Of a stretch of DNA of 64,000 nt, positions 1,247 through 26,161 are shown piece after piece. Origin of the DNA: Actinomyces naeslundii (GTDB lineage Bacteria; Actinomycetota; Actinomycetes; Actinomycetales; Actinomycetaceae); assembly GCF_001956585.1 (NCBI RefSeq), contig NZ_MSRR01000010.1, forward strand, positions 162,749-226,748, in the 5' to 3' direction. Position 1 is the stretch's first letter. Each line of letters opens with the position of its first letter. The notes below the pieces were generated by a model, which ran no database searches, was not told where the DNA came from, and saw nothing but the letters and a program-made list of their open reading frames with translations. Position numbers and translations under genes: made by a program.

Positions 1247-3364
1247 CTAGCGCTCGCCCGACGGCTGCGGGGCCGGGGTCGGCAGCTCGTAGGAGGGTTT
1301 CGACGACGGCACCTTGCCCTGGTAGCCCGTGTCCTGGTTGCCGGTGGCATCCTTGTACACCCCGCTGGAGTCGGTGTCGCGCTGGACCGCGAAGGTGTAC
1401 TCGGTAGTGGTCGCCCCCTGCTCACCAGCGCCTGAGGCGTGGGAGAAGGACGTGCGCCAGTCGGCCAGCTCCGGGGCCCGTTCCTCCAGGCCCTCGGTGG
1501 CCTGTGCGTAGACGTCCGAGGCGTGGGGGTAGCCGCCCATGTCCATCTGGTGGGTGTCGAGCATGGCGACCTGGCGGTGGGGACCGGTGGGCGTGGGGGC
1601 GGCGTCGAGCCCGGGGACGGCGTCACCGGCGTTCTCCAGGTGGAGGGCGTGGACGTCGTCGGGGATGGCGGCGCCCGCGGTGGGCGACCCGGCCGTGAGG
1701 ACCGTGGTGATGTTGTACCGGTCCTGGATCGCAGGGTCGGCGGCGATGTTGGACACGGTGATCCCGCCCTGGGAGTGACCGTAGAGGGCGACCTCCTCTC
1801 CGGGCTGGATACCGGCCTGGCGCATGGCGGTGACGACGGCGCTCTCCATGGCCGTGGGGGTCCCGCCCACCCCCTCGAGGTTGGTGAGCAGGTCCTGCGG
1901 CTCACCGTCGCCGACGGTCCAGTCGGTGGTTCCGGGGACGTAGACGACCCAGGAGACGCGGCCGTCGGCGTGCTCGACCCGTTGGATGGAGATGACGCCG
2001 GCCTCCTCGTAGTCCTGCCCCAGGGATCCTCTGGAGGCCTGCAGCTCCTGACAGTGGGTGATCGTCTCGGAGATGCTCTGCGGAGACCTGGAGTCCTTGC
2101 CCTTGCCGGTCATGCCGGCCTGCACCGGGCTACCCAGCCCCAGGGGGTCCTTAGTGGCGGGAGGGAGCACGGTGGATCCGCTGCCGCCCACGGGGGTGAC
2201 CGTGATCCCGGTCTGGCGCCCGTAGAGCCCGGCACCCAGTGCCGTCGCGTTCATCCCCAGGTACGCGGTGACGCGTTGCATGGGCGTGAGGCTGGTGGTG
2301 TCCACGGTCCGGGTCCCCACGGGCACCTGACCGGGGAGGTGCTGCGTCACCCACGGGTCGAGGCGCTCGGAGACCTGCTTGAGGTAGGCCTCGATCGTGG
2401 CGGACTCCCGCCCGGTCCTGGCCTTCTGGAGCCAGAGTGTCAGCAGAACGATCCGCACGGCGTCGTCCTTGACCCACCGGGCGGTGGCCGGGTCGGCCAG
2501 CAGGAGGTGCAGGGCCTCGGCAACGGCCTGGCCGTCCTCGCTGTCCGCCAGCTTCGCGTAGAGGGGGCTGCCGGGCGTCGTCAAGAGCGTCGCCAGGCCG
2601 GTGGGACCCGAGACCGCTGCGGAGATGCCGCGCCCCAGCGCCTGGTAGGCCAGGCCACTGTCGAAGGCCCGGATGTCCACGGGGCCCACGAGGCCGGGAC
2701 CGGGCGTGGCGCCGCCCTCGGCGAGCGTGTGGGCCTGGGAGCAGGCGATGACGTCGGAGGCGATGCCGCGCAGGGACGCGGCGACATCCGAAAGGCTTCC
2801 CGCACCTTGCGTCAAGCCATTGATCGAGTGGAGAGCCATCTGGTATTGGATGTCTCCTTGCCGCCACATATGGTCGTTGTAGGCAAGGTCCTCAGCCAGC
2901 GTGGTGGTGCTCGACCCACCCACCAGCGTGGTTGACTCTCCCGACCCCGGTAGGCACTGACCGCCGCTGCTGTGCCAGGAGCTGTATGGCGGTGTGTAGT
3001 AATGAGTGGTGCCATCCTCATTCATCATGGGAAGCGGTGGAATGAGCTCAATCTCCCCAATCGCCTGGAGGGCACTCTCCTGAGCATTCTCCAGGGAGCC
3101 GGCGGTCAGGTTGAGACTGCCGGCGAGGGTATCCAGGTCATCCGTGTTCACTGAGACGCTGCCGCCCGAGACGATCGTTGGGGCCAGTCCTCCCCACATG
3201 CGCCATGGGTGGCCGGTGTCCTCCGGGGCCGGTCCGTTGTACGGGGCAGGGGGAGTCGCAGGCTCCGGGGGCAACGGATCGGAGTAAGGCGGCTTCGTCG
3301 CGTGGGGGTCCTGCTTCCAGGCGGGGTACGAGCCGCTGGGACTGTCCGTGACGACCGGGCTCAT
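1247..3364 (-). CDS. Alpha/beta hydrolase with helical N-terminus, possible type VII-exported lipase
   Basis: A 705-residue protein. Residues 1-70 are Pro-rich; about 75-110 and 180-220 are predicted amphipathic helices. The C-terminal third is an alpha/beta-hydrolase: nucleophile elbow YGHSQGG near residue 528, candidate acid in NAGDAVPGLD near 577 and His in GGYPHASD near 614. There is no Sec signal or lipobox. The upstream small WXG-type gene overlaps its start by 4 bp (ATGA), so the two are translationally coupled. Large hydrolases paired with WXG100-like proteins are typical of ESX/type VII substrates, which would place it outside the cell; this is inference because no secretion-machinery genes are in the window. 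The substrate cannot be read from the sequence. The start (ATG 3364) is fixed by the overlap. Confidence 0.7.
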   Translation of the reverse strand: MSPVVTDSPSGSYPAWKQDPHATKPPYSDPLPPEPATPPAPYNGPAPEDTGHPWRMWGGLAPTIVSGGSVSVNTDDLDTLAGSLNLTAGSLENAQESALQAIGEIELIPPLPMMNEDGTTHYYTPPYSSWHSSGGQCLPGSGESTTLVGGSSTTTLAEDLAYNDHMWRQGDIQYQMALHSINGLTQGAGSLSDVAASLRGIASDVIACSQAHTLAEGGATPGPGLVGPVDIRAFDSGLAYQALGRGISAAVSGPTGLATLLTTPGSPLYAKLADSEDGQAVAEALHLLLADPATARWVKDDAVRIVLLTLWLQKARTGRESATIEAYLKQVSERLDPWVTQHLPGQVPVGTRTVDTTSLTPMQRVTAYLGMNATALGAGLYGRQTGITVTPVGGSGSTVLPPATKDPLGLGSPVQAGMTGKGKDSRSPQSISETITHCQELQASRGSLGQDYEEAGVISIQRVEHADGRVSWVVYVPGTTDWTVGDGEPQDLLTNLEGVGGTPTAMESAVVTAMRQAGIQPGEEVALYGHSQGGITVSNIAADPAIQDRYNITTVLTAGSPTAGAAIPDDVHALHLENAGDAVPGLDAAPTPTGPHRQVAMLDTHQMDMGGYPHASDVYAQATEGLEERAPELADWRTSFSHASGAGEQGATTTEYTFAVQRDTDSSGVYKDATGNQDTGYQGKVPSSKPSYELPTPAPQPSGER

Positions 3365-3588
3365 GACGGGCTCGCTCCATTGGATGAGCCGCGCGACTCC
3401 AGGGCGCCGACATTGGTGAAGGCCGTGTCATAGCGCGTCGCCAGCGTGGTCAGGAGCCCGGAGGCATTGTCCAGTGCCGTCTGGCAGGCGTTGGAGTCCG
3501 CTCCGACCCAGCTGGCGGGGACCGAGGCGGGGAACTGGGTGACGGCGGTGTCATAGTCCGCCTTCGAGCGTGACAGTGAGAAAGACAT
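3361..3588 (-). CDS. Small WXG100-like protein
   Basis: A 75-residue protein starting MSFSLSRSKADYD. It is predominantly helical with a central SWVGADSNA turn matching the W-x-G hairpin of WXG100/ESAT-6 proteins, then a second helix ending in a Ser/Gly tail. It is slightly shorter than the usual ~100 residues. I chose the ATG at 3588 because the 14 extra upstream codons of the open frame are non-helical and Pro/Gly/Arg-rich. Its stop overlaps the start of the hydrolase (ATGA), so it probably chaperones or escorts that protein. Family assignment rests on size, helix-turn-helix form and the WVG motif only. Confidence 0.55.
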   Translation of the reverse strand: MSFSLSRSKADYDTAVTQFPASVPASWVGADSNACQTALDNASGLLTTLATRYDTAFTNVGALESRGSSNGASPS

Positions 3589-4107
3589 GACTCGACGGTA
3601 GGGCGCGCCTGGGACGCCCGCAGCGCCCACGATCCGCCCTGTGGATCAGCCCTGCAGACTGACGCCTGTGGCCCCCGGAATCCCGAACGGGGCGCTGGTC
3701 CTCCCGGCCCGCTCCTCGGCTGCGCGCATCCACTCAGAAAAGGACTCGGCCCGCGATCCGGTTTCCCGGATCGCGGGCCCAAGCCTCGCGAGGTCCTCCT
3801 GCGACCCGGCTTCCCATAAGGCCGGGGAGGTGGATCCTCCTTCGCCAGAGCGCTCGGTCCGGGCTCCCTAAGACCCGTTCCGAACTCGGAGACCTGCCAG
3901 TCATCGGGCTCCCCAACCCTCGTGACCGGTTCCGTCCGGCGGTAGTAACCATGTAACCGACCGATCCTGAGCGGACCCCCCGGAAACCCCTATGAACATG
4001 CTGAGAAATAGGCGCCATTCCGCCATTTCCACGTTGCCTGTGCCACATTCCGGCTGTCGCTCAGGTTATTCCGGCACTTCTTCAGGCCCTTTCCCAAGGC
4101 CTCTTCA
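3589..4107. other. 519-bp intergenic region, no supported protein gene
   Basis: No reading frame here has convincing coding character. It holds the strong hairpin at 3748-3779 and, upstream of it on the reverse strand, several GC-rich inverted segments (for example around 3795-3835). The segment 3780-4050 could be the long 3' UTR of the methyltransferase gene, the 5' region of the WXG-like gene, or a structured RNA ending at the hairpin. The last ~60 bases (4010-4080) are relatively AT-rich. Confidence 0.4.
3748..3779 (-). terminator. Strong hairpin, probable reverse-strand terminator
   Basis: Perfect 14-bp stem (GGCCCGCGATCCGG on the forward strand) with a TTTC/GAAA tetraloop. On the reverse strand the stem is followed by GAGTCCTTTTCTG, a weak U-rich tail; the forward side has none. 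It would end transcripts coming from the methyltransferase side, or an RNA encoded in 3780-4050. Confidence 0.6.
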
Positions 4108-4779
4108 TCAAACCGAGGCGGGCGGCCGGCGCAGGCACACGACGGCGTCGGCCCGGCTGTCCTCCTGGCCGTCAGGCCCGGTGACCCGGCGCTGGCGCTC
4201 CTCAGCGACGACGACCTCCCAGCCCGCCGTCGCCTCGGCCAGGCCCGTCACCAGCTCGCCGGCCGCGTAGGTCCGGGCGTGGTGCCTGTGCCAGGGCGGG
4301 TTGACGGCGTGCACGGCAGTGAGCAGGCGCCCGCCGGGGGCGACGCGGGCGGCGGCGTCGGACAGGAGGGCGACGAGGTCGAGGGAGCCCTCCTCGGGCC
4401 CGCCGTGCACGTAGAAGCTCGTCACCAGGTCGAAGGGCCCCTCCGGCAGGCCGGCTTCGACGTCGTGCACCCGGCCGGTCACTCGTGAGGCGACCCCACG
4501 GCGCTCAGCCTCTCGACTCAGGCGTGCGACGGCGGTGGCGGACAGGTCCAGGCCGGTCACTCGCCAGCCGTGCTCGGCCAGCCACAGGACATCAGCGCCC
4601 TCGCCGCAGCCGATCTCCAGGGCGGCTCCGGGCTCCCAGTCGACGGCGAGCTCGGGCAGCCAGTTATTGGGGCGGCCCGACCAGAGCTGCTCGACCGAGG
4701 CGTAGCGCTCCTCCCAGCTCGAGGCGTGGTGACCGGCGTCGGACGGCGGCTCGGAGGGCTGATGGCGGGAGGACGTCAT
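4108..4779 (-). CDS. Class I SAM-dependent methyltransferase
   Basis: A 223-residue cytoplasmic methyltransferase. The SAM site is clear: motif I LEIGCGEGADVLWLAEHG near residues 53-70, the acidic end of beta-2 in VTGLDLS, and motif post-I. N-terminal SWEERYASVEQLWSGRPNNWL is typical of small thiopurine/tellurite-type (TehB-like) methyltransferases in actinobacteria. The substrate is not evident. The start ATG at 4779 is the only reasonable one. It lies just outside the defence island on the same strand but 183 bp away from vsr, so it is probably a separate, chromosomal gene. Confidence 0.8.
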   Translation of the reverse strand: MTSSRHQPSEPPSDAGHHASSWEERYASVEQLWSGRPNNWLPELAVDWEPGAALEIGCGEGADVLWLAEHGWRVTGLDLSATAVARLSREAERRGVASRVTGRVHDVEAGLPEGPFDLVTSFYVHGGPEEGSLDLVALLSDAAARVAPGGRLLTAVHAVNPPWHRHHARTYAAGELVTGLAEATAGWEVVVAEERQRRVTGPDGQEDSRADAVVCLRRPPASV

Positions 4780-4859
4780 GGTGCGATCCTAGGCGGTGCC
4801 GGCTCACGCAGCAGGTCGCGCAGTGAAGCGCTCCGACGGCCCCACCGGCGACCGGGCCG

Positions 4860-4950
4860 GTCCGTACACGCCCGCCGCCTGCCGGACGAGGTCCGCGCCG
4901 CCCTGGAGACCGAGCCCATCATGCTGCCCAGCTGGGACCCGATGGCCTGA
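4860..4950 (+). pseudogene. Possible 3' remnant of a lost gene
   Basis: The forward frame ending at the TGA of 4948-4950 reads like the tail of a real protein (LPDEVRAALETEPIMLPSWD then a short end), with codon use typical of the host. No start or upstream domain accompanies it, and upstream the same frame runs antisense through the methyltransferase gene. It sits exactly at the edge of the defence island, where a resident gene might have been truncated. The parent protein is not recognised; this is a low-confidence call. Confidence 0.25.
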
Positions 4951-4962
4951 GGCTGCTGGGGC

Positions 4963-5460
4963 TCACGGGCGCCCGTTGGGCTCTTCGCCTTCGTCGAGGG
5001 CCCGGACGATGAGCCGCACGGCCTCCTCGGGCGGGACGTGCTCCCAGATCCGCAGCACCGTCCACCCCTCCGCCTCGGCCATCGCGGTGGTCTCTCGGTC
5101 CCGTTCGATGTTCCTCGCGAGCTTCGGGCGCCAGTAGCCGGCGTTCGTCACCGGCATCGTCGCGTGCTCGGGGCACCCGTGCCAGAAGCAGCCGTCGATG
5201 AATACGGCCACGCGCCGGCGGGTGAACACGATGTCCGCCCGCCGGCGCTTGTTGCTCCATGGCGCCATGTCCACGCGGTAGCGCAGGCCCCGGGCGTGCA
5301 GCAGTCGCCGGATCGCGAGCTCGGGCTTGGTGTCCCGGTGCATGTTGGCACGCATGGACCTGGCCACGCCCGGCGTCGACGCCCAGGACGGGGCATCGGC
5401 CCGTCCCGGCCGCCGCGGCTGCGACCTCTCCGGCTCAGTCGGCGTCGACGACGGGGTCAT
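4963..5460 (-). CDS. vsr: Very short patch repair endonuclease Vsr
   Basis: A 165-residue Vsr nuclease that nicks 5' of the T in T:G mismatches created by deamination of 5-methylcytosine. Visible family features: MRANMHRDTKPELAIRRLLH, the catalytic Asp in RRADIVF (about residue 76), FIDGCFWHGCPEH (87-99) with the metal/zinc ligands, and RDRETTAMAEAEGW leading to the RIWEH strand. Its start overlaps the end of the Z1 gene by 26 bp, so it is the last cistron of the operon. Pairing with the C5 methyltransferase at 17358-18452 makes sense: it would repair the mutagenic by-product of that enzyme, or act as a nuclease subunit of the system. The first ~30 residues are Pro/Arg-rich and may belong to a later start. 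Confidence 0.9.
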   Translation of the reverse strand: MTPSSTPTEPERSQPRRPGRADAPSWASTPGVARSMRANMHRDTKPELAIRRLLHARGLRYRVDMAPWSNKRRRADIVFTRRRVAVFIDGCFWHGCPEHATMPVTNAGYWRPKLARNIERDRETTAMAEAEGWTVLRIWEHVPPEEAVRLIVRALDEGEEPNGRP

Positions 5461-8446
5461 CGCTCCTATCCGGACGTTCTACCGTAAAGGCAATCCTGCC
5501 CTTAGGTGCCGCAGAATGGGGAATAGCAAACGAAAAGATCGTAGCAACATCCTTAGACTCCATCCTATTCGGAAGCTTTCTAGGGTCACGCTCGCCTCCA
5601 ATTTTCGGGTCTGCGGCGAATGTAAGCAGCATCGCCCCTCGCTTCCCTGTGCAGTACGCTTCGGCCGACACTCCACCCGAACTATCTGGATTTCCAGCCA
5701 TGGCCTCAATAGCGTCACGCTGACGGAATGAACTTCCAGAGAAACCCCCACGAGAACGACGAGTTCTTTTGAGCACGCGGAGCTTTATTCCTTCGACGGT
5801 TTTCTCTGACACACTCTCGAGTACAGGAAGAAGAACCGCCCAGTCCTCAAGCTTTCCTTCGAGCATCGCCCGACGTATCATCTCCAGATGAGGGAAGAAG
5901 TCGAACTGCTCCATCCAAGAGAAACCCTTCAGAACCGCAAACATTTCCTCGGCAGTAACGACGGCGACCCGCCCATCGAACTTCCCCATACGCTTGGTCC
6001 TCGGGTCCAGATAATTGAAGGACTCAATCGGTCCGAACAAGTCACGCTCGAACCACGGCCGAACGAGTGCGAAGTGCTTCGCATTCGTCTCTCCGCTCCC
6101 CCGCTCAGGTTGGCGCGGGAAGTCCTGAAGCTTACCGCCGATACCACCAAAACTAAGTTTACTATTGTACATCTTCTTCGCATTGTACATCTTGTTACGA
6201 CTCGTGGGAAGCAACCATGGCAAATGCTGGAACACCAATGGCGGAATATCGATGGGACGGATGAGGGGGCGACCTTCTTCATCAACTCTGGCAAAAATCG
6301 CGAGCTGCTCACGGAATTGCTCCTCATCCCGCATGATCGCCCCGAATGCCTCGTAGAGGTCATACATCGCCTCCCCGGCCCCCTTGACACTTCTGGCCAT
6401 GTACAGCCTCACCAGATCAGGGTATCCACGCCTGTAGCCGAACCACCGCCCCATCTGCATGAGGGCGTCCCCCTGAGTCGACCTGCGCTTGAAATAAGTG
6501 ATGGTCAGCCCCTCGAGGGTGAACCCCCGACTGAGCTTCGTGCCGCCGACGAGGATTCGCCAGACCCGATCCCTTTGGAAGTCTACCTGGTTGTACTGCT
6601 GGTCCTTGTCACCATTGACGATGACGACCGGGTCGGTGGCGCCGGCCATGACGAGGTCGAGCACCTCGCCGATGAATGGAGCCACGTCTTCGAAGGATTC
6701 CGGAAGGGGCAGGTCGCCCTCCCACTGCCGAGCGGCGGAGACGATGGCGAAGTCCTTATCGAAGAGCTTGCGCAGCGCATCATTCGATACGGGGGACCCG
6801 TATCCCGCCTGCTGCCACAGGCGGCGGATCCGATCCCCGAGCTCGGCGTGCTCCGTCTGCTTGACGGACTCGTGCACCAGCATCGTGTGGTGACGGAAGG
6901 CCCCCTCCAGCGCGGGTCTTCTCGTCGCTCTCCACAGCTTGATCGCCCCGGTGAGCACGAAGGCGTTCAGGGCCTCGCGCAGCTCCTCCTCCACACGCTG
7001 CGGATTGGTGTCGTCGTCACCGCTCAGACTGCGGACGAAGGCCTTCTCGTTCGAGACGGCCGGATCATTCTTCTCCTCATCGTTGAGATCCTCGAAGTCG
7101 TGATAGGCCCGACCTCCCCGGTATGCCTCCGGGGCGCTCAGGCTCACGATGAAATCGCGGGGGAAGATGTCCTCGGCGTCCTCCGGTGAGACGAAGACGT
7201 TCGCGAAGGGTGTCGCGGTGTAGCCGACGTACTGGGCGCGGCTGAGCCGGCGCATGAGCTCAGCGATGAGCCGGTTGATCGCGGTGCGCTTTTTCCTCGT
7301 TCCGGCGCTGTCCGGCTTGACCGTGTTGACCGAGGCCTGATCGGCCTCATCGTCAATGATGAGTGTTGGAATTTCGTTCAATGGCGCCTTGATGCGTCGC
7401 AGATCATTGACCAGTTTGCCGAGCACGGTCTTGTTCTTCTTGACGACGGCGATGCGTACGCGGGTCCGATGGATGTTGTCCACGTGCCACATGGGCCGTG
7501 CGGGATTACTGAGCTCATGCGCGGCCCGCGGATCGAGCGTATCAAGACCGGCCTTGAGTAGCTTGTAGTCATCCTTAGCGCCGGTCAGGCGACAGATGGC
7601 CGGAACACCCGTTTCGGTGAATCCGGGACCGTAGGAGACGAATCGCCCCGCCTTCCAGTCGACGTCATCGGTGCTCACGTAGTCGACGTCCTTCAGGAGG
7701 TCCTCGTCCTCCTCACTGATTCCCCCGAGGATGTTCTCCCTCCCGATGAGCTCCATGTCGAGTCGGCGCTGGGTCTGGGAGCGCAGGATCTCCACAGTTC
7801 CGGTGAGCACGATGATGAGCCGGTAACCCGCGTCGATGGCCTTGGCGATGACACCGGTGAAGTTGGCGGTCTTGCCGCTCTGGACGTGACCGACGACCAG
7901 CCCCTTCGACTGGTAGGCCTCAGCCCGTGAGGGATCGGCGAGGCGGCCGACGATGTCGGTGGTGGCCGAGTCGATGCTCGCCACTGCTTCAGGCGGCAGC
8001 CTCTTCTCCAGCAGTGACCGGTAGCCGTCCCAGTAGAAGTGGTGCGCCCGTCGCCGCTCCTCGTCGTACCAGGGCTCCCTGTCGGATGCGGCGATGACCA
8101 TCGTCCTATCGATAAAGACCGGGAAGGCCTCGTTGATGCGAGACGCCACGTCGTCGTTCACTCCGAGCCGCTTCATGACGACCGCCCGCCGTTCAGGGGT
8201 GCGGGCGGCAGTCCCGCCAGTCCAAGCAGCATCGCTCTCCGCGTCCCACATGCTGAGCCGGAGGTGGAACGTCCTTCTTCCCGGGGCGTTGCGATCAGCA
8301 CCCAGGATGAGCTCAGCGAGCTCTTCCCGTTCGATCCTCTCCCCAGCGACCTGGAGGAAGGCCGACACAATGTTGTGCAAGTCCATCGGTTCGTCCATGC
8401 CCGTGAGCGCCTGCTCAAGTGCCCGGTCGTACTTGTCAATGCTCAT
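5435..8446 (-). CDS. Z1 domain helicase-like ATPase of a restriction-like system
   Basis: A 1003-residue superfamily-2-like ATPase. Motifs in order: Walker A GHVQSGKT (residues 186-193), DEAD-type Walker B IIDDEAD (363-369), motif III GYTATPF (408-414), TKLSRGFTLEGL (636-647) and the arginine-finger motif QMGRWFGYR (664-672), which is the signature of Z1-domain proteins. The Z1 family occurs beside GHKL/MutL ATPases, PD-(D/E)XK proteins, Vsr and C5 methylases in predicted restriction-like systems (Iyer, Abhiman and Aravind) and in the Mza defence system; this neighbourhood matches. It is predicted to translocate on or remodel DNA for the nucleases. Three bp follow the preceding stop. The C-terminal segment (about residues 745-990; 5480-6210) is visibly AT-richer than the rest, suggesting exchange of this part. 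Confidence 0.85.
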   Translation of the reverse strand: MSIDKYDRALEQALTGMDEPMDLHNIVSAFLQVAGERIEREELAELILGADRNAPGRRTFHLRLSMWDAESDAAWTGGTAARTPERRAVVMKRLGVNDDVASRINEAFPVFIDRTMVIAASDREPWYDEERRRAHHFYWDGYRSLLEKRLPPEAVASIDSATTDIVGRLADPSRAEAYQSKGLVVGHVQSGKTANFTGVIAKAIDAGYRLIIVLTGTVEILRSQTQRRLDMELIGRENILGGISEEDEDLLKDVDYVSTDDVDWKAGRFVSYGPGFTETGVPAICRLTGAKDDYKLLKAGLDTLDPRAAHELSNPARPMWHVDNIHRTRVRIAVVKKNKTVLGKLVNDLRRIKAPLNEIPTLIIDDEADQASVNTVKPDSAGTRKKRTAINRLIAELMRRLSRAQYVGYTATPFANVFVSPEDAEDIFPRDFIVSLSAPEAYRGGRAYHDFEDLNDEEKNDPAVSNEKAFVRSLSGDDDTNPQRVEEELREALNAFVLTGAIKLWRATRRPALEGAFRHHTMLVHESVKQTEHAELGDRIRRLWQQAGYGSPVSNDALRKLFDKDFAIVSAARQWEGDLPLPESFEDVAPFIGEVLDLVMAGATDPVVIVNGDKDQQYNQVDFQRDRVWRILVGGTKLSRGFTLEGLTITYFKRRSTQGDALMQMGRWFGYRRGYPDLVRLYMARSVKGAGEAMYDLYEAFGAIMRDEEQFREQLAIFARVDEEGRPLIRPIDIPPLVFQHLPWLLPTSRNKMYNAKKMYNSKLSFGGIGGKLQDFPRQPERGSGETNAKHFALVRPWFERDLFGPIESFNYLDPRTKRMGKFDGRVAVVTAEEMFAVLKGFSWMEQFDFFPHLEMIRRAMLEGKLEDWAVLLPVLESVSEKTVEGIKLRVLKRTRRSRGGFSGSSFRQRDAIEAMAGNPDSSGGVSAEAYCTGKRGAMLLTFAADPKIGGERDPRKLPNRMESKDVATIFSFAIPHSAAPKGRIAFTVERPDRSDDPVVDAD

Positions 8447-8449
8447 GTC

Positions 8450-9442
8450 TCAGTCCTTGTGCGTGGGTGCGGTGGTGAACTCGGCGGGTGCGGTCCCCTC
8501 GGGTTCGAGGTCGGTGACGTCGATCCGGTAGTCGATGCTGCGGACCAGTTCGGGGCGGGTCACGATCCGGGAGAGTCCTGCGGAGGTGATCGCCGGGAAG
8601 GCCTCATCGACGGTGTAGAAACGAGGTTCGCTGCGGACCAGGAGGCGCGTCGTGTAGAGCCGGTCGGCCTGGGCGTCCTCCCATCCGCAGTCGGTGAGTC
8701 TGTCGTCGAAGTCCGTGCGCCCGGACCGCAGCCGCCGGCGAATGCGCTCGATGAGCTCGGGGAGGGTCTCCCCGTTGCCGGCCGCACCGGCTCCTGTCAC
8801 CTGCACCGACATGAGATGCAGCGGCCGCCCCGGTGTGGGGGTCAGCTGGCCGAGGCCGTGGATGACGTGGATGCGTCGCTCACTGCGGGTGGTCTTGACC
8901 TCGACGTCGGCCTCGCCGAGGACGAAGTCGTGCTCCTCTGCCCGCGGCCCCAGCCAGGCTGCCAGCGCCTTCGTCTCCCCGACTCCGTCGATGAGCCGAT
9001 CGAGCGCCACCAGTTCACCGAACAGCCCGATCTCCTGGTCCTCGCTCAGCCTCGGTGCGCGCGCGAGCAGTCCTCGGAAGGCGTCGAGCGCCACGTGGAG
9101 CGCCCGCTCCAGGTCGTCGCCCTGCTGGAGCTGGTCGGTGACTGCTTGGAGGAGGGAGTAGGCCTCGTACTCGATGCCCTTGGCCTCGACGGTGACGCGG
9201 AACCAGACGGTCTCGTCCCCCGGCTCCTCGACGATGTCGGTGCGGATCATCCGGTAGGCGGAGACGTCGATGTCCGAGCCCGTCGCCGGTGTGCGCAGCG
9301 TCAGCTCCCCGCGAGGAGGGTCGATGCCCAGGACGCAGAGGGGCTCCTCGGCGAGACGCTGCTCAGCGGGGTGCCCGGCGTCGAAGTAGGCGGCCAGGGT
9401 CTCCGGGGTCAACGCGTTTCGGTCGTCGGGATGCTCGTTCAT
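8450..9442 (-). CDS. PD-(D/E)XK motif protein, DUF4420-like
   Basis: A 330-residue predicted nuclease. The core is the conserved GLFGELVALDRLI helix (E143) followed by HDFVLGEADVEVKTT (171-185), giving the D-x-ExK arrangement of PD-(D/E)XK enzymes, then the HxIHGLGQL strand. This pattern corresponds to DUF4420, which is typically located between MutL-like and Z1 genes. It is presumably the DNA-cutting subunit of the island. It starts 3 bp after the GHKL gene and ends 3 bp before the Z1 gene, on the same strand. Active-site residues are present, so I expect it to be catalytic, but target specificity cannot be inferred. Confidence 0.8.
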   Translation of the reverse strand: MNEHPDDRNALTPETLAAYFDAGHPAEQRLAEEPLCVLGIDPPRGELTLRTPATGSDIDVSAYRMIRTDIVEEPGDETVWFRVTVEAKGIEYEAYSLLQAVTDQLQQGDDLERALHVALDAFRGLLARAPRLSEDQEIGLFGELVALDRLIDGVGETKALAAWLGPRAEEHDFVLGEADVEVKTTRSERRIHVIHGLGQLTPTPGRPLHLMSVQVTGAGAAGNGETLPELIERIRRRLRSGRTDFDDRLTDCGWEDAQADRLYTTRLLVRSEPRFYTVDEAFPAITSAGLSRIVTRPELVRSIDYRIDVTDLEPEGTAPAEFTTAPTHKD

Positions 9443-9445
9443 CCT

Positions 9446-10960
9446 CTACTCCTTCTGGGCGCCGCGACGCCGGAGCTCGTCGGCGAGGGCGGTCTCGATG
9501 ATTCTCTCGAAGGCCTCGATCTCACGCTTCTCCCGCCCACCCAGGTAGGCCCCCTCGAAGAAACGCGAGTAGAGCAGGAACACGAGGGTCTTGAGCAGCG
9601 GGGCGTCCTGGGGGTCGCTGCTGGTGGAGAACACTCGCCGGTGGCGCTCGTTGATCTTGAGCAGGCGCTGCTCGTGGTCCACTTCGACCAGGCCGTTCTC
9701 CGGCAGGCGCTCCCACCGGATCCTGATGGGTTCGGCGTCGGCGAATTCGACGGAGTCCTGGATGGCGTCGTAGACGTCCCGGCTGAGGCCTCCGCGCGGC
9801 TCGACCAGTCGGATCGGGCGCGGCTCCCTCCGGCGCCCCTCGGTGGCCGCACTGCGGGCGGAGGCGAGGAGCGCTGAGAAGGTTCCGATGTCCTGCCCCA
9901 CGGAGGCGTGGACGGCCCGTCCCATCTCCGGTTCCAGGACGACGCCGCTCTTCTCCGGGTTGATCCGGACGACGTCGAGCAGCGCGTCTCCGACATCGAG
10001 GGAGATGCGCAGGTTCGCGTAGTCCCGACCGCCGTCGATGATGGAGTTCCAGCCGCCCAGCTGCAGCAGGCGGTCATTGCGGTAGACGTACAGTCCCTGG
10101 CCGCCCTCGGCCGGGGAGAGCCTCCGTGAGGCCTCGACTCCCGGGGCCTCGAGCACGGCGCCCTTGAGGATGACGGCGGTCAGGTCGAAGGGGACCTCGC
10201 CCACCTCACCGGCGAGTCGGTATGGATGCGCGGCAGAGGCATCCAGGGCGAGCGGATCGAGGGCCCGCACTCGTCTCACGGACCCCGCCCGTCCCAGGCC
10301 GAGGTCGTACTCGTCGACGGCGATCTCGACGTCCCCCCGGGCGATGATCCTGTGGAAGACGAGTCCGAGGTGACCGCGGATGCTCTCGACGAGTCGGCTG
10401 AGCCAGGAGCGCCGCTCGTCCCGGTCCGGCGCGACCACCGCGGTACGGAACCCCCGCCAGCGGACGACGGTCCCGCTCAGCGGCGCGGCATCGGTCATGC
10501 GCACCAGGGACCCCTCGAGGACCTCGCCCACCTGACCGGCGTCGAGGCTCTGCACGAGGGTGGGCTCCTCCCTCGTGATGCGCCGGCCGACGGGAACGCC
10601 CCCGATGGCCCGGGCGTAGACGTCGAGGGTGTCGGCCTGGCTCAGGGAGGCGGCCTTCAGTCCGAGCCCGTAGTGGCCCAGGTCCGTCTCGCCGTAGTCA
10701 CGACGGCGGGAGAGGGCCATGGCTGCATCAATGCCGGCCTCGTCCATGCCGTGGCCGTCGTCGATGACGAGCATGCCGGTGACGTAGTCGTCATCGGTGA
10801 GGATGCGGATGCGTACCTGTGAGGCTCCTGCGTCGATGGAGTTGTCGACGAGGTCGGCGAGCGCCGTGGGGAGCTCGTGATGGGCTCCCAGGGCGTCCGC
10901 GATGGACGGGTCGGGCGGAACGGTCCGGGAGGAGACCGCGGCGATGTCCTCCATGGTCAC
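9446..10960 (-). CDS. GHKL ATPase (MutL/MORC-like) of the defence operon
   Basis: A 504-residue ATP-binding protein with a complete Bergerat fold: N-box ALADLVDNSIDAGA (about 33-46), G1 box VIDDGHGMDEAG (65-76) and G2 box DLGHYGLGLKAASLSQ (93-108). Sequence downstream fits the S5-like transducer domain, with a charged C-terminus. Such MutL/MORC-like ATPases are the hallmark of the restriction-like systems that also encode Z1 and Vsr proteins, where ATP-driven dimer closure is thought to load or gate the nuclease. A GTG at 10960 overlaps the DUF499 stop as GTGA; the ATG six bases later is the alternative start. Either way it is translationally coupled to the gene upstream. Confidence 0.85.
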   Translation of the reverse strand: MTMEDIAAVSSRTVPPDPSIADALGAHHELPTALADLVDNSIDAGASQVRIRILTDDDYVTGMLVIDDGHGMDEAGIDAAMALSRRRDYGETDLGHYGLGLKAASLSQADTLDVYARAIGGVPVGRRITREEPTLVQSLDAGQVGEVLEGSLVRMTDAAPLSGTVVRWRGFRTAVVAPDRDERRSWLSRLVESIRGHLGLVFHRIIARGDVEIAVDEYDLGLGRAGSVRRVRALDPLALDASAAHPYRLAGEVGEVPFDLTAVILKGAVLEAPGVEASRRLSPAEGGQGLYVYRNDRLLQLGGWNSIIDGGRDYANLRISLDVGDALLDVVRINPEKSGVVLEPEMGRAVHASVGQDIGTFSALLASARSAATEGRRREPRPIRLVEPRGGLSRDVYDAIQDSVEFADAEPIRIRWERLPENGLVEVDHEQRLLKINERHRRVFSTSSDPQDAPLLKTLVFLLYSRFFEGAYLGGREKREIEAFERIIETALADELRRRGAQKE

Positions 10961-13900
10961 CCCTCGTTGAATCGGCCCGGTTTAAGACCGAGTGTGCGGG
11001 CGTTCTCCGCGACCGTGCGCACGGTGTCGGCATCGAATCCGTTGTAACGGGTCGCGTCGATGGAGACCTCGATGTTGAGGCTGTCCGCGCCGCCGGCTTT
11101 CAGGTGGGCGATGACCTCATCGGCCAGCAGCGCGAGCTGGGCGGCGATGTCCTTCCCGGGGTCCAGCTCGGCCACTCCCTCGAATCTCGAGTTGGCGACG
11201 GGCTGCGGCTCGGGTGCCGGGGGGACGGCGCGCCCGTCGCGGTGGGAGCCGGATCGGGTCACGGTGGCGTCGGGTGCGGCGCCCGTGTCGTCGGCGGGTC
11301 CGGGCTCGCGCGACCCCGCGGCCGCGGCAATCCTCCGCTCCTCCTCCTCACGGCGGCGCTGCGCACGGGCGAGCGCGGGGGCGACGAGAAGGGTCGTATC
11401 GGTGATCCTCGGCGCCTCGTCCTCCAGCGGGAGGCGCAGGTCGAGGAAGTCGCCCCGCTCGGTGTCGTAGTCGGCGGCGAGGGCGAAGCCGACGCTCTCC
11501 CAGCCGATGTCATCCATGACGGAGGCGACGGCCTTCTCCAGCACCCTCCGGTCCCGGAGGCGCGGCATGTAGGGGTAACGGGTGAAGTAGGACCACAGCT
11601 CGCCGACGGTGATCCTGCCCCCGTTCCATCGGGCACGAAGGTTCGTCCCCCCGAGCTCAAGGGCCACGGCCGTCGGGGTGATGTCGGTCAGGACGATGTC
11701 CTGCTTGCCGAGCCTGAGGCCGGCGCGCACGGCGATCCGCTGCTCGTCCCCCTCGATCTTGATCGGCTCGATCTTGAAGGGGCGGCCGCCGTCGTCCTGG
11801 ACGGGGTGGAGCGCCCAGATCCACGCACCCGCCACGGAGCGCTCGGCGACGCTCTGGGTGTCCCGCCTCTTCTGGCGTGCCTGCTCGGCCTGGCTGAGCG
11901 TGAGGTCGTGGTCGCGGATCGACTCCTCCTTCGCCATCTCCGACCACGCCATGTGGATGCGCAATGCCTGCTCGGCCTCGGCCCACCGCCCCTCGTCGGG
12001 GGCGACCGTGATGAGGGTGTTGACATGGTTGCGGGGCGCGGAGCCGCGATGGTGCAGGAGCTCCTCGGTGAACTCCCTGCCGGGCCCGGTCACCTGCGAA
12101 CTCCGCCCGTTCCTGGCGGCGACCGTGCAGTCCGGGCCGAGGATGACCAGTGTCGTCTCCTGCTTGTCGGGGACGTCCCCGGTGGATGCCGGGGCGACGA
12201 TGACATGGGCGAACTCGGGGACGCGGGCACCCGCCGCCATTCCCTTGAGCATGTCGACCGCCTCCCGGGCGACGTCGGCGGTGTCGAGGGAGGCTGCCCG
12301 GTCGACGACCATCCGGTTGATCGACGGCTGCCGGTCGTACCAGCTCCGGGTCCCCTGGTTGTAGACGTAGGTGGCTCGGTCGGTGAGCATCTGCAGGGAG
12401 GAGCCGAAGTTGCCCAGGGTGTCCCCGGGCATGGCCACGCCGAGGAAGAGGCGCTGACGGTCGATGCCCTTGTGGGCGGTGTCGAGGGTGGCGGCGGAGC
12501 CGAGGAACAGGGTGCGGGCGATGCGCCGGGTCAGTGCCCGTCGTCCGAACAGCTCTCGTTCCCTGTCGATGCGCAGGGGGGTGGCGTTCTCGCCGTCGAT
12601 GTCGGTCTCGATGATGGTGCGCCAGGCGTCGTCGAGGTAGCCGGCGATCTCGTCGCGGACGGCGTCGTCGTCGAAGGGGATGGAGCCCGGCATGATGAGG
12701 GGGGCGTCATCGTCGGCCTGGACCAGGGAGTGGACCACGGCGCTCATGAGGCGCAGGACGCCGCGGGTGCGCTGGAACCGTTCCAGGGAGGACCAGTCGC
12801 CGTAGAGCCGGTCGAACAGCTCGGGGTGGATGGGGTAGGCCTCGCGCAGCCGCCGCTCGTAGTCTGGCTGGAAGGTCTCGGAGGGCAGCTCGCCGCGCTG
12901 CCCCCGGTAGTAGTCGACGAATCGTTTGATGGTGGCGTCGCGCTTGCGGAGGGCCTCGGCGTCGAGGTCGGTGAACAGGCGCCGGCGCACGATCTCGAAG
13001 CTCTCCCCGGAGGTGGCGGGGCTCCAGTTGTGGGCCACGCGTCCGACGACGTGCTGGAGCCGCTGGAGGGCCTCGCGGCCGCCGTCGCCGCCGATCTCGA
13101 GCTCGGAGGCGCGGGTGACGGTGCCGTCCTGGCGGATGTCGGAGGCGGGGATGGAGACGAGGAGGAGGGCCCCGGGGGTGCCCTGGACCGCGGCGGTGAG
13201 CTCCTGGGCGAAGGTGAACTGGGTGTCGAAGCTGCCGCCGGTCAGGCCGTCGCGCCGGTACAGGCCGCGGGCGTAGGCGACCCACTCGTCGATGAGGATG
13301 AGGGCGGGGGTGTGGCGGCTGATGAGGGTGCGCAGGGCGGCACCGGGGTTGGTGCCGGTGCGGTCGGCCTGCGCGATGAGCTCGTGGGCCTCGGCGCCGC
13401 CGAGCTGCCAGGCGAGCTCGCCCCACAGGGTGTGAACGACCGTTCCGTCCAGCTTGGTGGTGGGCTGCCCGGGGGAGATCTCGTTGCCGACGATGGCGAC
13501 GCGCCTGACGTCCTCGGGGATCTCGGTGTCGGCGAGCAGCTCCTGGACGTCCTGGGTGAGGTCCTTGAGCGGGGTCGGGCCGGCCAGGTGCCAGGCGGCG
13601 AGCATGGAGTGGGTCTTGCCGCCGCCGAAGGTGGTCTGAAGGTTGATGACGGCCTGGGCGTTGGGGTCCCCGGACAGCCGCCGGGCGGTCATGGTCAGGA
13701 GGGTCTTGAGCCCCTCGGTGAGGTAGGTGCGCTTGAAGAAGCCGGCGGGGTCGCCGTACTCCTCACTGCTCTCCCCGTGCGCGACCTGGTGCAGGTCGGC
13801 GGCGTACTCGGCCTGGCCGTAGCTGCCGGAGACGATGTCGGGGTGGGGGCGGACGACGTCCTTCCAGGGTGCGAGGCCGTTCTCCCCGAGGCCGGGCATG

Positions 13901-14376
13901 GCGACGGCACTCGCCCGGGTGTCGCGCCTGGTGGCGGCGTCGAAGGTGGAGTGCAGCGCGTCCCGTTTCATGGCGCGGACCTGGTCGGCCTCGGCGGGGG
14001 CGTTGATGGCCCGCAGGAGGCGCTCGGCGGTGTCGAGGGCGCGGTAGGTGTCGTCCATGCTGAAGGGGCTGTTGTGCGCCCATTTGTTGCGGACCTCGCG
14101 CAGCTCGCCGGCGAGGTTCTGCTCACCGCGGGAGAGGATCCCGCTGAAGAGGAATCCGAGGTTCCCGATGCGTTCGGTGATGATGCGCAGCTGGCACTGG
14201 GGGTCGGCGGGTTCGTAGGTCCGATCCGGCCTGCCGTCCTTCCAGGCGAGGAGGTCGGTCCAGGTGCTGGCGGCGGGCAGCTTCGGGGCGACGGCGACGG
14301 CGATCCAGGGCTCCAGGGCCCCGGAGAGGATCTCGATGGCCCGGCCGATGCGGTCCCGGTTGGAGGTGGCGGACAT
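10957..14376 (-). CDS. DUF499 ATPase with N-terminal HEPN/Swt1-like domain
   Basis: A 1139-residue protein. The N-terminus (about 55-125) is helical and contains ELREVRNKWAHNSPFS, whose R-N-x3-H (residues 96-101) matches the R-x4-H RNase motif of HEPN domains, in a Swt1-HEPN context. The AAA-type ATPase core has TTFGGGKTHS (Walker A, 248-257) and ALILIDEWVAYAR (Walker B, about 358-370), characteristic of DUF499. The C-terminal half is a long multi-helical region rich in Arg and Glu. DUF499 proteins accompany DUF1156 methylases in anti-phage loci, and here the DUF1156 gene ends 1 bp before this start. I chose the ATG at 14376; the longer open frame upstream lies inside the methylase gene. Confidence 0.85.
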   Translation of the reverse strand: MSATSNRDRIGRAIEILSGALEPWIAVAVAPKLPAASTWTDLLAWKDGRPDRTYEPADPQCQLRIITERIGNLGFLFSGILSRGEQNLAGELREVRNKWAHNSPFSMDDTYRALDTAERLLRAINAPAEADQVRAMKRDALHSTFDAATRRDTRASAVAMPGLGENGLAPWKDVVRPHPDIVSGSYGQAEYAADLHQVAHGESSEEYGDPAGFFKRTYLTEGLKTLLTMTARRLSGDPNAQAVINLQTTFGGGKTHSMLAAWHLAGPTPLKDLTQDVQELLADTEIPEDVRRVAIVGNEISPGQPTTKLDGTVVHTLWGELAWQLGGAEAHELIAQADRTGTNPGAALRTLISRHTPALILIDEWVAYARGLYRRDGLTGGSFDTQFTFAQELTAAVQGTPGALLLVSIPASDIRQDGTVTRASELEIGGDGGREALQRLQHVVGRVAHNWSPATSGESFEIVRRRLFTDLDAEALRKRDATIKRFVDYYRGQRGELPSETFQPDYERRLREAYPIHPELFDRLYGDWSSLERFQRTRGVLRLMSAVVHSLVQADDDAPLIMPGSIPFDDDAVRDEIAGYLDDAWRTIIETDIDGENATPLRIDRERELFGRRALTRRIARTLFLGSAATLDTAHKGIDRQRLFLGVAMPGDTLGNFGSSLQMLTDRATYVYNQGTRSWYDRQPSINRMVVDRAASLDTADVAREAVDMLKGMAAGARVPEFAHVIVAPASTGDVPDKQETTLVILGPDCTVAARNGRSSQVTGPGREFTEELLHHRGSAPRNHVNTLITVAPDEGRWAEAEQALRIHMAWSEMAKEESIRDHDLTLSQAEQARQKRRDTQSVAERSVAGAWIWALHPVQDDGGRPFKIEPIKIEGDEQRIAVRAGLRLGKQDIVLTDITPTAVALELGGTNLRARWNGGRITVGELWSYFTRYPYMPRLRDRRVLEKAVASVMDDIGWESVGFALAADYDTERGDFLDLRLPLEDEAPRITDTTLLVAPALARAQRRREEEERRIAAAAGSREPGPADDTGAAPDATVTRSGSHRDGRAVPPAPEPQPVANSRFEGVAELDPGKDIAAQLALLADEVIAHLKAGGADSLNIEVSIDATRYNGFDADTVRTVAENARTLGLKPGRFNEG

Positions 14377-14377
14377 G

Positions 14378-17212
<2,835 letters not shown>

Positions 17213-17357
17213 GGGAGTCCTTCCTGTCGACGGAGAACGGGGAATTCTCCGCGGGTGTGAACGGGAACATCCTACGACCGCCCTCCGACACGAATCACAC
17301 CCTTGAACTGACGGTGAGCCTCGATTCGGTGTCGTACCGGCCGGCTACCCTGATTCC
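17213..17357. promoter_or_regulatory. Divergent promoter region of the defence island
   Basis: The 145 bp between the starts of the DUF1156 methylase (reverse) and the C5 methyltransferase (forward) is the only non-coding gap inside the island and must drive both transcripts. It contains short inverted segments around 17240-17255 but no regulator gene is encoded nearby. No clear operator can be assigned. Confidence 0.45.
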
Positions 17358-18452
17358 ATGACTGCCCGCACCATCCGCGTCCTCGACCTCTTCGCCGGGG
17401 CGGGAGGTCTCACCGCGGGCTTCCACACGGCGTCGTCGCGCTTCCGCAGCATCGCCGCAGTCGAGATGGACCCGGAGGCCGCCGCCTCCTACCGCGCGAC
17501 CTTCCCCAAGACGGATGTCTACGCGGGCGCCATCCAGGACTGGCTCGCCGAGGGGACGATCCCCGCCGGCGTCGACGTCGTCGTCGGCGGTCCCCCGTGC
17601 CAGGGGTTCAGCACGCTCGGCAAGCGGGACGCGGAGGACGCCCGCAACCGGCTCTGGGAGCAGTACGCCCAGGTCATTCAGAGGGCCAGGCCCAAGTACT
17701 TCGTCGTGGAGAACGTGCCCGCCTTCGGGAAGTCGCCCCAGTACCGGGACTTCCTGGCCGCCACCCGGCCCGGGGAGTTCCTCGAGGACTACTCCTTCGA
17801 CTTCCGCGTCCTCAACGCCGCCGACTACGGCGCCCCGCAGGCGCGCAGGCGCGCCGTCCTCATCGGGCACCGCTACGACATGGCCGTCCCCGGGTTCCCG
17901 GAGCCCACGCACTCACCCGACGGGGGCGGCGACCTGCCCCCGTACCGGACGGTGCGACAGACGCTGCTGGGCGTGCCCGCGCAGCCCGACATGGACGAGC
18001 GCTTCGACCAGCTCCGCACCCGAGTCGGCTCACGGCGGGTGCCCGGCGCCTTCTCCCCCCGGGAGCTGCACGTCTCCCGGGGCTACAGCGACATCTCACT
18101 CGAGCGCTTCGCGAAGATCCCCGAGGGCGGGAATCGGGCGAATCTCCCGGACAATTTGAAGGCCCCCTGCTGGCTCCGGCACACCTCCGGATCCATGGAC
18201 GTCATGGGGCGCCTGCACTGGGACCGGCCCTCCGTGACGATCCGGACCGAGTTCTTCAAGCCGGAGAAGGGCCGCTACCTCCATCCCGTGGAGAACCGAG
18301 CCATCACCCACTACGAGGCGGCGCTCCTCCAGGGATTCCCAGACACGCACCGATTCATCGGCTCCCGCACGTCCATCGCCCGGCAGATCGGCAACGCCGT
18401 CCCCATCCCACTGGGTGCCGCCATCGCGCGGCAAGTCCTCGCACAATTCTGA
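17358..18452 (+). CDS. DNA (cytosine-5)-methyltransferase
   Basis: A 364-residue C5 methylase. Motif I is DLFAGAGGLTAGF (10-22), motif II VEMDPEAAASY, motif IV GGPPCQGFST with catalytic Cys81, motif VI VVENV (117-120), motif VIII APQARRRAVLIG (159-170), the target-recognition region spans about 180-300, and motif X is IGNAVPIPLGAAIA near the C-terminus. The set is complete, so the enzyme should be active. It is divergent from the defence operon; with Vsr as the operon's last gene, it completes a C5-methylase/Vsr pairing. It could protect host DNA from the PD-(D/E)XK protein. The start ATG at 17358 is the only one giving motif I near the N-terminus. Confidence 0.9.
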   Translation: MTARTIRVLDLFAGAGGLTAGFHTASSRFRSIAAVEMDPEAAASYRATFPKTDVYAGAIQDWLAEGTIPAGVDVVVGGPPCQGFSTLGKRDAEDARNRLWEQYAQVIQRARPKYFVVENVPAFGKSPQYRDFLAATRPGEFLEDYSFDFRVLNAADYGAPQARRRAVLIGHRYDMAVPGFPEPTHSPDGGGDLPPYRTVRQTLLGVPAQPDMDERFDQLRTRVGSRRVPGAFSPRELHVSRGYSDISLERFAKIPEGGNRANLPDNLKAPCWLRHTSGSMDVMGRLHWDRPSVTIRTEFFKPEKGRYLHPVENRAITHYEAALLQGFPDTHRFIGSRTSIARQIGNAVPIPLGAAIARQVLAQF

Positions 18453-18556
18453 GGGCGAGCCCGAGTACTGGGGCAGTCGTGCACTCCAGGCAGCTCGGAC
18501 CAACAGGATCAGTCCTGGGCGCCATCGGCGTTCTTGCGGCATTTTCCCGACATTTT

Positions 18557-18574
18557 CCGCCCTTTTTCGGGCGG
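18557..18574 (+). terminator. Hairpin downstream of the cytosine methyltransferase
   Basis: Six-bp stem CCGCCC/GGGCGG with a TTTTTC loop, 105 bp after the methyltransferase stop. No T-run follows, so it is a weak intrinsic terminator at best. It marks the right edge of the defence island before the siderophore gene. Confidence 0.4.
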
Positions 18575-18606
18575 ACCGTCCCAAGCGAGTTCACATCTGC
18601 TCCAGT

Positions 18607-18625
18607 TAAGGTTCGCCTTGGAAAG
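18607..18625 (+). promoter_or_regulatory. Candidate DtxR/IdeR iron box
   Basis: TAAGGTTCGCCTTGGAAAG matches the left half of the 19-bp iron-box consensus well (AGGTT..GCCT) and forms AAGG-N4-CCTT. It lies 31 bp before the start of a siderophore-interacting protein gene, the expected place for an iron-dependent repressor. About 12 of 19 positions agree with the consensus by eye, so this is suggestive only. Confidence 0.4.
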
Positions 18626-18655
18626 AGATCAGATCATCAGGAGACGGACACGCAG

Positions 18656-19414
18656 ATGGCACGTGGAGGACGGGGATTCCAGGGTGCGGTGCTCAAGGCG
18701 CTGCGCGTGCCGGAGCACAGGCTCACGGTCACCGGAGTGCGCGATCTCCCGCCCTACACGGAGCTGACCGTGCAGAGCCCGAGCCTTCTGGGTGCCGGAG
18801 GCCCCAACCTGCCACCCACCGCCTGGGTGCGCATGTGGATCCCGCAGGGCGGCCGGGAGTATCAGCGCGCCTACACGCTCACCCGCATCAACCGGGCTCA
18901 GGCCAGCGCCACGCTCCTGTTCCTGCACCACGAGCCGGACGGGCCGGCGTCGCAGTGGTCGAAACAGGTCAGGCCCGGGGCCACCGTGGCCGTCCAGGTC
19001 ATGGGCGGCACCAGCTATCGCTCGCCGTCTCACGGCGACCGGATGCTGCTGGTGGGCGACCGCGCCTCCGCCCCCGCTCTCGCCGACGCCGTCAACGCTG
19101 CCCCGGCGGGCAGCCTGGCCACGGTCATCATGCTGGCCCCCGAGGCCGGCTACCTGCCCCTGGCCGCGCGCGAGCACAAGCTCATCCGACTGGCCCCCGA
19201 GATCTCCGACGACAGGCTGCTGGCCGCCGTCGACCACACCTTGTGGGCGGACACCGGGGACATCTCGCTCGACTGGGTCTGGATCGCGCTGGAGAGCGAC
19301 GCCACCAAGGCGGTGCGGCGCCACCTGGTCGCCTCGGGCATGAGCCGACGCAGCATCCAGCACCAGGCCTACTGGATCCGCGGCCGCGCCATGGGCGTGG
19401 CCTCCGAGACCTGA
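18656..19414 (+). CDS. Siderophore-interacting FAD-binding reductase
   Basis: A 252-residue SIP/ViuB-type flavoprotein that reduces cytosolic ferric siderophores to release Fe(II). The first ~110 residues form the FAD-binding barrel with the RAYTLTR motif (R-x-Y-T flavin contact); the second half is the NAD(P)H-binding SIP domain (HGDRMLLVGDRASAPALADAV, then DWVWIALESDATKAVRRHL). The length is typical. The start ATG at 18656 is preceded by CAGGAGAC. A possible iron box lies just upstream. It is monocistronic here; no siderophore transporter is adjacent. Confidence 0.85.
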   Translation: MARGGRGFQGAVLKALRVPEHRLTVTGVRDLPPYTELTVQSPSLLGAGGPNLPPTAWVRMWIPQGGREYQRAYTLTRINRAQASATLLFLHHEPDGPASQWSKQVRPGATVAVQVMGGTSYRSPSHGDRMLLVGDRASAPALADAVNAAPAGSLATVIMLAPEAGYLPLAAREHKLIRLAPEISDDRLLAAVDHTLWADTGDISLDWVWIALESDATKAVRRHLVASGMSRRSIQHQAYWIRGRAMGVASET

Positions 19415-19495
19415 CCCGAGGAGGCGGCACCGGGCGAGGAGCGGACTTATCCTGGAGCCGTTCATCGTCGCGATCTGTTCACCGAGGTGCTCTAC

Positions 19496-22723: not shown

Positions 22724-24439
22724 ATGTACAATCGACATGTGATTGTCGATCTGAATGACCTCACAGAAGCCCTCGCTCGTTTGGCGCTGGAGGGCGGCGA
22801 CTGCCTTGAGATCGAGGCGAAGACGTTCTCCGAGTACTCCCGCAGCGCCCTCGGACCCACGCTGTCGGCCTTCGCGAACCTTCCCGGAGGCGGCACCGTC
22901 CTCCTGGGCGTCAGCGAGGATCCAGTCTCCGTCGTCGGAGTCCAGGACCCACACAAGCTCCGGCAAGCCCTCGTCTCACAGGCCCGTCAGGGCTTCTCCA
23001 CCGAGATCGCTGTCGATACGCACGCCATCATCGTTGAGGGCAAGACCGTCATCGCTGCCAACGTGCAGGAAGCTCCCGTCAACAGCAAGCCATGCCGGTG
23101 GAAGGAGACGGGGGCGGCGTACCTCCGCCAGTACGACGGCGACTACCGCATGTCGCAGCAGGAGGAGCAGCAGCTCCTTCTGCGCCACCAACGTCCCCGG
23201 CAGGACTCCGTTGCCGTTCCCGGTACCTCCGTGGACAGCCTCGACAACGATCTGGTTCAGCGCTTTCTCCGAGCGGTTCGTACTGGCTCCACCGCGCTTA
23301 GCGGCCAACCCGACGCCGAGGTCCTCGTAAATCTGAATATCCTCACCGAGGACGGAGAGACGACCCGAGCAGGGCTGTACGCGCTGGGCCGTTATCCCCA
23401 GAGGCAGTTCCCCGGCCTGTCCATCACAGCCGCCGTCACCGACACGAACGACACAGTCAGGGCAACGGATCGACTCACGATCGCGGGCCCCCTGCCGCAG
23501 ATGCTCACCGACGCCGTCGACTGGGTCGCACGCACCACGCAGACACGCATCCGGTTCGGGGATGACGGACACGGCCGCGATGTCCACGAGTTCCCGCTCA
23601 TCGCGGTTCGCGAGCTCATCGCCAACGCTCTCGTCCACCGAGACCTCTCCGAGCCCGCGCTCTCGAAAGCGATTGAGATTCGTCTGCTGCACGACCGCCT
23701 CATCATCTCCAGCCCAGGTGGTCTGTGGGGGCTGAGTGTGGATCAGCTCGGTACACGAGACGGAAAGTCTGCGGTCAACGAGCACCTCTACACCGTCTGC
23801 ACCTTCGCCACGGACTACGAGGGACGGCGCGTGATCGAAGGATTGGGCTCCGGTATTCGGGAGGTCCGGCGCGCCCTGCGAGAGGCGGACATGGAGCCCG
23901 TCCGCTTTCAGGACACCGGCGTGCGCTTCACGGCTCTGCTCCCCCGAAGCGCGCTCCTCTCACCCGAGGATCTCACCTGGCTGTCCGGCCTTGAAGCCCA
24001 CGACCTCGGCGTCGAGCAGCGCCACGCACTGGTCGAGATGCGGCACGGAAAGTCATGGACGAACTCCTCCTATCGCCGTCGCTTCGGCTGCGACTCCCAG
24101 CAGGCCCGTCGTCAGCTCCAAGAACTGGTGAACCAAGGCTATGCAGAGGCCCGAGGACAACGCGGCTCCACCTCCTACGTCCTGACCTCCGACGGCGCTC
24201 GACCGGCTTCCGGCATCAAGGAGCTCACTGTTCCCCCAGAGATCTCTACCCTGTCCACCAACGCGCCCGCCGTCTGGGCCTGTCTTGAGAACGGGCCGCG
24301 CACGCGCCAGCAGATCGTCGAGGCCACACGCCTGTCCCCACGCCAGGTGACGTACGCGCTCAAGCATCTCGAGGAGGCCGGATTCGTTGAGAAAGACGGC
24401 CGTCGGGGTGACACCACCACCACGTACCACCAAACCTGA
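22724..24439 (+). CDS. AlbA_2 / HATPase_c_4 ATP-binding protein with winged-helix C-terminus
   Basis: A 571-residue protein of the class often named 'ATP-binding protein' or RecG-like regulator. Residues about 15-130 are an AlbA_2/Schlafen-like domain (EIEAKTFSEYSRSALGPTLSAFANLPGGGTVLLGVSED). The middle has an HATPase-like region (FPLIAVRELIANALVHRDLSEPALSKAIEIRLLHDRLIISSPGGL, then GLGSGIREVRRAL). The C-terminal ~150 residues contain two winged-helix-like stretches. Roles proposed for this family include transcription control and phage defence; none is proven here. The ATG at 22724 is given, but TACAAT at 22727-22732 lies six bases before a GTG at 22739, so a leaderless GTG start is quite possible. 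It is the only gene between the two purB-end repeats. Confidence 0.75.
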   Translation: MYNRHVIVDLNDLTEALARLALEGGDCLEIEAKTFSEYSRSALGPTLSAFANLPGGGTVLLGVSEDPVSVVGVQDPHKLRQALVSQARQGFSTEIAVDTHAIIVEGKTVIAANVQEAPVNSKPCRWKETGAAYLRQYDGDYRMSQQEEQQLLLRHQRPRQDSVAVPGTSVDSLDNDLVQRFLRAVRTGSTALSGQPDAEVLVNLNILTEDGETTRAGLYALGRYPQRQFPGLSITAAVTDTNDTVRATDRLTIAGPLPQMLTDAVDWVARTTQTRIRFGDDGHGRDVHEFPLIAVRELIANALVHRDLSEPALSKAIEIRLLHDRLIISSPGGLWGLSVDQLGTRDGKSAVNEHLYTVCTFATDYEGRRVIEGLGSGIREVRRALREADMEPVRFQDTGVRFTALLPRSALLSPEDLTWLSGLEAHDLGVEQRHALVEMRHGKSWTNSSYRRRFGCDSQQARRQLQELVNQGYAEARGQRGSTSYVLTSDGARPASGIKELTVPPEISTLSTNAPAVWACLENGPRTRQQIVEATRLSPRQVTYALKHLEEAGFVEKDGRRGDTTTTYHQT

Positions 24440-25015: not shown

Positions 25016-26161
25016 CTACCCGACGGCGGCTGAGGGCTGGGCCGGGGGCACGGCGCCTCCGGCCAGGAGCTGGCGAGCGCACAGCCCGGCAACGCACTCC
25101 TCGGCCGGGTTGAGACCGAGCCGGTTGACGTCGATGTGCAGCAGGTCCAGAGCCCGGCGCCCATCGGTCCCCGCTCCCATGACCCCGATGGCGCGCCCGG
25201 CGTCGTCGGCCAGCTCGCCGATGGCCCCGGCCGCCTGGCTCCAGGAGGGGATCTCGTCGAACTGGAACTCGATGACCTCCAGCAGCTGCTGGACGATCGG
25301 CCCCAGGGCGCTGCCGTCGCGCAGGTGCGCGGGCAGGCGCGATCCCCACATCCGCAGGTGCGCGGAGAGCAGCTCGGCCTCAGGCAGCGGCGCGCTGCGG
25401 GCCGCCAGTGCCAGGAACCGCGCTGCCAGGGCCGCCCGCGGCACCGGCCTGGGAATCTGCCAGATCTGGTGGTCCAGACACCACCGGCTGGAGACATAGA
25501 AGTGGCGCTCGGCCTCCTCGACGCCGGCCACGCCCCCGTACTTGCCGTACTCGGGGCCGTAGACGTCGAAGGCGATCCCGGGCCGGCTGGCGCCGATCCC
25601 TCCGGTCATCGGGTCGGAGACGAGGCGCTCGACCGTGCGCACCTCGGTCCGCTGGGCCACGGCACCCAGCTCGCGCATGCTCGCGTAGGCATCGTCCAGG
25701 ACGCCCTGAACGGCCTTGAGCCGCAGCCGGATGTGGTGCCCACGCAGGTCGACGAAGCGCAGGAAGTGCGCCGAGCGGATGTCCCACTGGCCGCGGGCCC
25801 GGGCCAGCCACTGCGCGATCTCGGGCAGCAGGGCGTCGGTGTCGTCCCCGCCGGCGCAGTAGATCCTCGCGTACAGCCAGCCGACATCCTCCGTCTGGTT
25901 GACCAGCGCCGATCCCCGCTGACGCACCGAGCTGTGCTGGGCGCGCAGGCTGCCGAAGTCGGCGGCCGCCATCTCCAGGGGCTGGATCCCCGGGATCGAG
26001 CCACCCACCTGCGGGGTCGAGCCTCCCTGACCAGGCCGCTCAGCCTGCTCGCCGGCCCGCGAGCGCCCGCCGAGCCAGCGCAGCCGCCGGGAGCGGGTGA
26101 GCCGGCTGGGCTGGTTGCGCTGCTCGCGCCGGCTGGACTGGGCGTCGTCATGCGTGCTCAT
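25016..26161 (-). CDS. Thiopeptide-type RiPP biosynthesis protein (TIGR03891/SpaB_C family)
   Basis: A 381-residue protein with a disordered Arg/Ser-rich N-terminus (1-70), then the thiopep_ocin/SpaB_C fold: VGWLYARIYCAGGDDTDALLPEIAQWL and FLRFVDLRGHHIRLRLKAV, the family's key F-(I/V)-R-x-x-D...H-(I/L)-R-L-R pattern, then HFYVSSRWCLDHQ-type sequence. These proteins either eliminate glutamate from glutamylated Ser/Thr to give dehydroamino acids, or perform the [4+2] cyclisation that makes the thiopeptide pyridine ring. Only one such gene is present, so elimination is the minimum necessary role. Its ATG overlaps the stop of the LanB gene (ATGA). Last gene of the cluster. Confidence 0.75.
   Translation of the reverse strand: MSTHDDAQSSRREQRNQPSRLTRSRRLRWLGGRSRAGEQAERPGQGGSTPQVGGSIPGIQPLEMAAADFGSLRAQHSSVRQRGSALVNQTEDVGWLYARIYCAGGDDTDALLPEIAQWLARARGQWDIRSAHFLRFVDLRGHHIRLRLKAVQGVLDDAYASMRELGAVAQRTEVRTVERLVSDPMTGGIGASRPGIAFDVYGPEYGKYGGVAGVEEAERHFYVSSRWCLDHQIWQIPRPVPRAALAARFLALAARSAPLPEAELLSAHLRMWGSRLPAHLRDGSALGPIVQQLLEVIEFQFDEIPSWSQAAGAIGELADDAGRAIGVMGAGTDGRRALDLLHIDVNRLGLNPAEECVAGLCARQLLAGGAVPPAQPSAAVG

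Follow-up and report, generated by a model that had tools for sequence, protein, structure and literature searches.

A seven-gene locus at positions 4963–18452 of a 64,000-nucleotide window from Actinomyces naeslundii (contig NZ_MSRR01000010.1) was analyzed using profile and genome searches. Judged by sequence, this operon is a hybrid in which two proteins of one anti-phage system, predicted to have lost their own DNA motor, are encoded alongside a motor and a nuclease from another. The window has a GC content of ~70%, and the source genome comprises 3.12 Mb in 47 contigs. The nearest named loci are those of Actinomyces oris and A. timonensis, at 97–98% in DUF499.

The first half of the operon matches the Hma system (PADLOC, PMC8565338), which corresponds to the type-1 DUF499-centred BREX-related (BR) system as presented in PMC12839542. 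The DUF1156 amino-methyltransferase (14378–17212, reverse strand, 944 aa) matches the HmaB model with 1092.6 bits over residues 2–931 and is classed as HmaB. The adjacent Swt1-HEPN and DUF499 AAA+ ATPase (10957–14376, reverse strand, 1139 aa) follows in the usual order. It gives 88.3 bits for HEPN_Swt1, 96.4 bits for DUF499 and 824.2 bits for HmaC, covering profile positions 3–940 of 941 with intact Walker residues, and is classed as HmaC. The HEPN–DUF499 fusion resembles that of type-1 BR systems, for which PMC12839542 gives 1370 taxa. The SNF2 helicase-nuclease HmaA was missing from the loci and from all 16 hybrid genomes searched, in agreement with the first-pass annotation, which had noted the lack of a separate helicase. 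No match to PglZ, as in BREX proper, was found among the operon genes or the scanned neighbours.

The second half is encoded by four further genes on the reverse strand. These are a GHKL (MutL/MORC-like) ATPase (9446–10960, 504 aa; PF13589, 79.2 bits), a DUF4420 PD-(D/E)XK nuclease proposed to be the DNA cutter (8450–9442, 330 aa; PF14390, 135.3 bits), a Z1 ATPase (5435–8446; PF10593, 167.8 bits; MzaC-like, 228.8 bits) and an accessory Vsr-type endonuclease (4963–5460, 165 aa; PF03852, 66.6 bits; TIGR00632, 123.4 bits against a cut-off of 97.85). In a Pfam-type profile scan, DUF4420 and Vsr were the only DNA nuclease families in the operon. Comparison with the NCBIfam and PADLOC models identified homologs of MzaB, MzaC and MzaD; however, their scores of 93, 292 and 97 bits fall well below the curated equivalog cut-offs of 850, 1500 and 420 bits. 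Neither MzaA nor an AIPR gene is present in the operon, and the absence of the latter had also been remarked upon earlier. The MORC/paraMORC restriction class was compared as defined by Iyer, Abhiman and Aravind 2008 (PMC2292703). The CglI/NgoAVII restriction systems differ, since CglI as outlined in PMC4267653 has a PLD-B3 nuclease and lacks both GHKL and DUF1156–DUF499.

The six reverse-strand genes are separated by +1, −4, +3, +3 and −26 bp, a spacing that would be expected of a single transcription unit. A C5-cytosine DNA methyltransferase (17358–18452, forward strand, 364 aa; PF00145, 197.3 bits) is transcribed divergently across a control region of 145 bp (17213–17357). The first-pass annotation had placed these seven genes in one hybrid defence operon with a Z1 motor that may serve both sets. 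Its coordinates and families were borne out by the profile searches and the observation was confirmed, but its interpretation is only partly supported. The gene order is conserved in 16 hybrid genomes; the C5 methylase is not universal, with an ortholog in 13 of the 16.

That the genes form a functionless assembly, in decay or brought together by chance, is very improbable, given this conserved order and the integrity of the examined catalytic residues. Identical residues were found in all 14 copies for Z1 (GKT, DDE(x)D, TAT and QxxRxFG), DUF4420 (E143, D172, E181-x-K183 and Q199), GHKL (N40, D67-x-G69-x-G71, G98/G100, K102, T164 and K337), the Walker residues of the DUF499 protein (G252, K254, T255, D363 and E364) and DUF1156 (DPFAGGG and DPPY). 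R96 and H101 of the N-terminal Swt1-type HEPN domain are likewise kept in 14/14 copies. The Vsr residues D76, C91, F92, W93, H94, C96 and H99 are identical in 12/12 aligned copies, and the C5 methylase has PCQ at 80 and ENV at 118. Third-position GC also argues against decay, having picked six of the seven genes in the window; in this crude test the DUF4420 frame lost out to an overlapping frame on the opposite strand.

Two hypervariable blocks of DUF1156, at about aa 285–395 and 445–530, are exchanged independently and are probably the target-recognition halves. The control region contains the inverted repeat CGGAGAA-7-TTCTCCG at 17231–17251, possibly an operator or a hairpin. Its arms also occur in loci L056, L060 and L061, but L057 and L058, whose control regions are shorter, lack them. 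A GCCGGCTAnCCTG-like element directly upstream of the C5 start is kept in 7/7 aligned copies.

The C5 ortholog is absent from three of the 16 hybrid genomes; in L210 it was located ~1 kb past the 20-kb locus stretch. At the spot occupied by C5 in most other copies, L059 carries a second, divergent DUF1156 methylase alone (16597–19437). The cassette occurs with the C5 methylase and without a full DUF1156 in L183, L213 and L214. Loci L212 and L213 are nested within hybrid lineages and retain a DUF1156 remnant, and therefore represent losses rather than ancestors. The branching of L183 and L214 beside the hybrid L211 is not resolved.

L183 is plasmid p2MP of Arthrobacter sp. 68b (NZ_KJ410765.1), which differs in having a 1096-aa Sacsin-type ATPase in place of DUF499 and no DUF1156. 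The C-terminal domain of this ATPase, common to the C-terminal ~100 aa of the DUF499 protein in the window, matches the hybrid DUF499 C-termini with 31.2 bits (E 1.6e-8), against a maximum of 7.9 bits among 1000 shuffles. The match to canonical DUF499 C-termini is weaker, with 15.7 bits (E 7e-4) against 6.4 bits for the best shuffle. A test of three L214 proteins did not reveal the domain in any of them. Docking via this shared domain is an idea based on p2MP as a single example.

Additional genes were observed beside related loci. In L214 (9415–18148), a 349-aa protein lies between C5 and GHKL, Sacsin is fused to an SF2 helicase in a 1590-aa protein, and a stand-alone HEPN_Swt1 protein of 359 aa adjoins the cassette, which lacks DUF499. 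Extra GHKL genes lie next to the hybrids in L210 (16158–19901) and L211 (1875–3536). The L210 frame, which matches both GHKL and sigma-70 region 2, is 1248 aa or longer, as it continues past the end of the locus stretch; in L211, GHKL occurs together with Hypoth_Ymh. In L077 from Leucobacter, a UG5-nitrilase reverse-transcriptase defence gene (2478–5813) adjoins the C5 gene.

Within the window, Schlafen/AlbA_2, HATPase_c_4 and winged-helix-type domains are combined in a 571-aa protein (22724–24439, forward strand). It is separated from the operon by an adenylosuccinate lyase gene, and is likened to the Schlafen proteins that PMC12839542 describes in the vicinity of many BREX and BR loci. A lantibiotic dehydratase C-terminal domain protein next to a 1137-aa frame without a Pfam match (25016–29571, reverse strand) may represent a lantibiotic-type peptide cluster. 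At 48000–53100, where two tRNA-Ser genes and a gene for an MFS transporter are located, the GC content falls to 0.56–0.65, and this stretch may have been acquired.

A natural lineage with an exchanged effector, together with relatives that lost either half, provides matched natural combinations for asking how DUF499/BrxC-type ATPases pass recognition on to an effector, and which of the proteins acts as sensor, as motor and as cutter. Family models call the locus piecemeal, as HmaB and HmaC without HmaA and as Mza-like genes under the cut-off, and a stable system of seven genes can therefore escape detection. The arrangement of these genes suggests that bacteria may combine defence parts in plug-in fashion.
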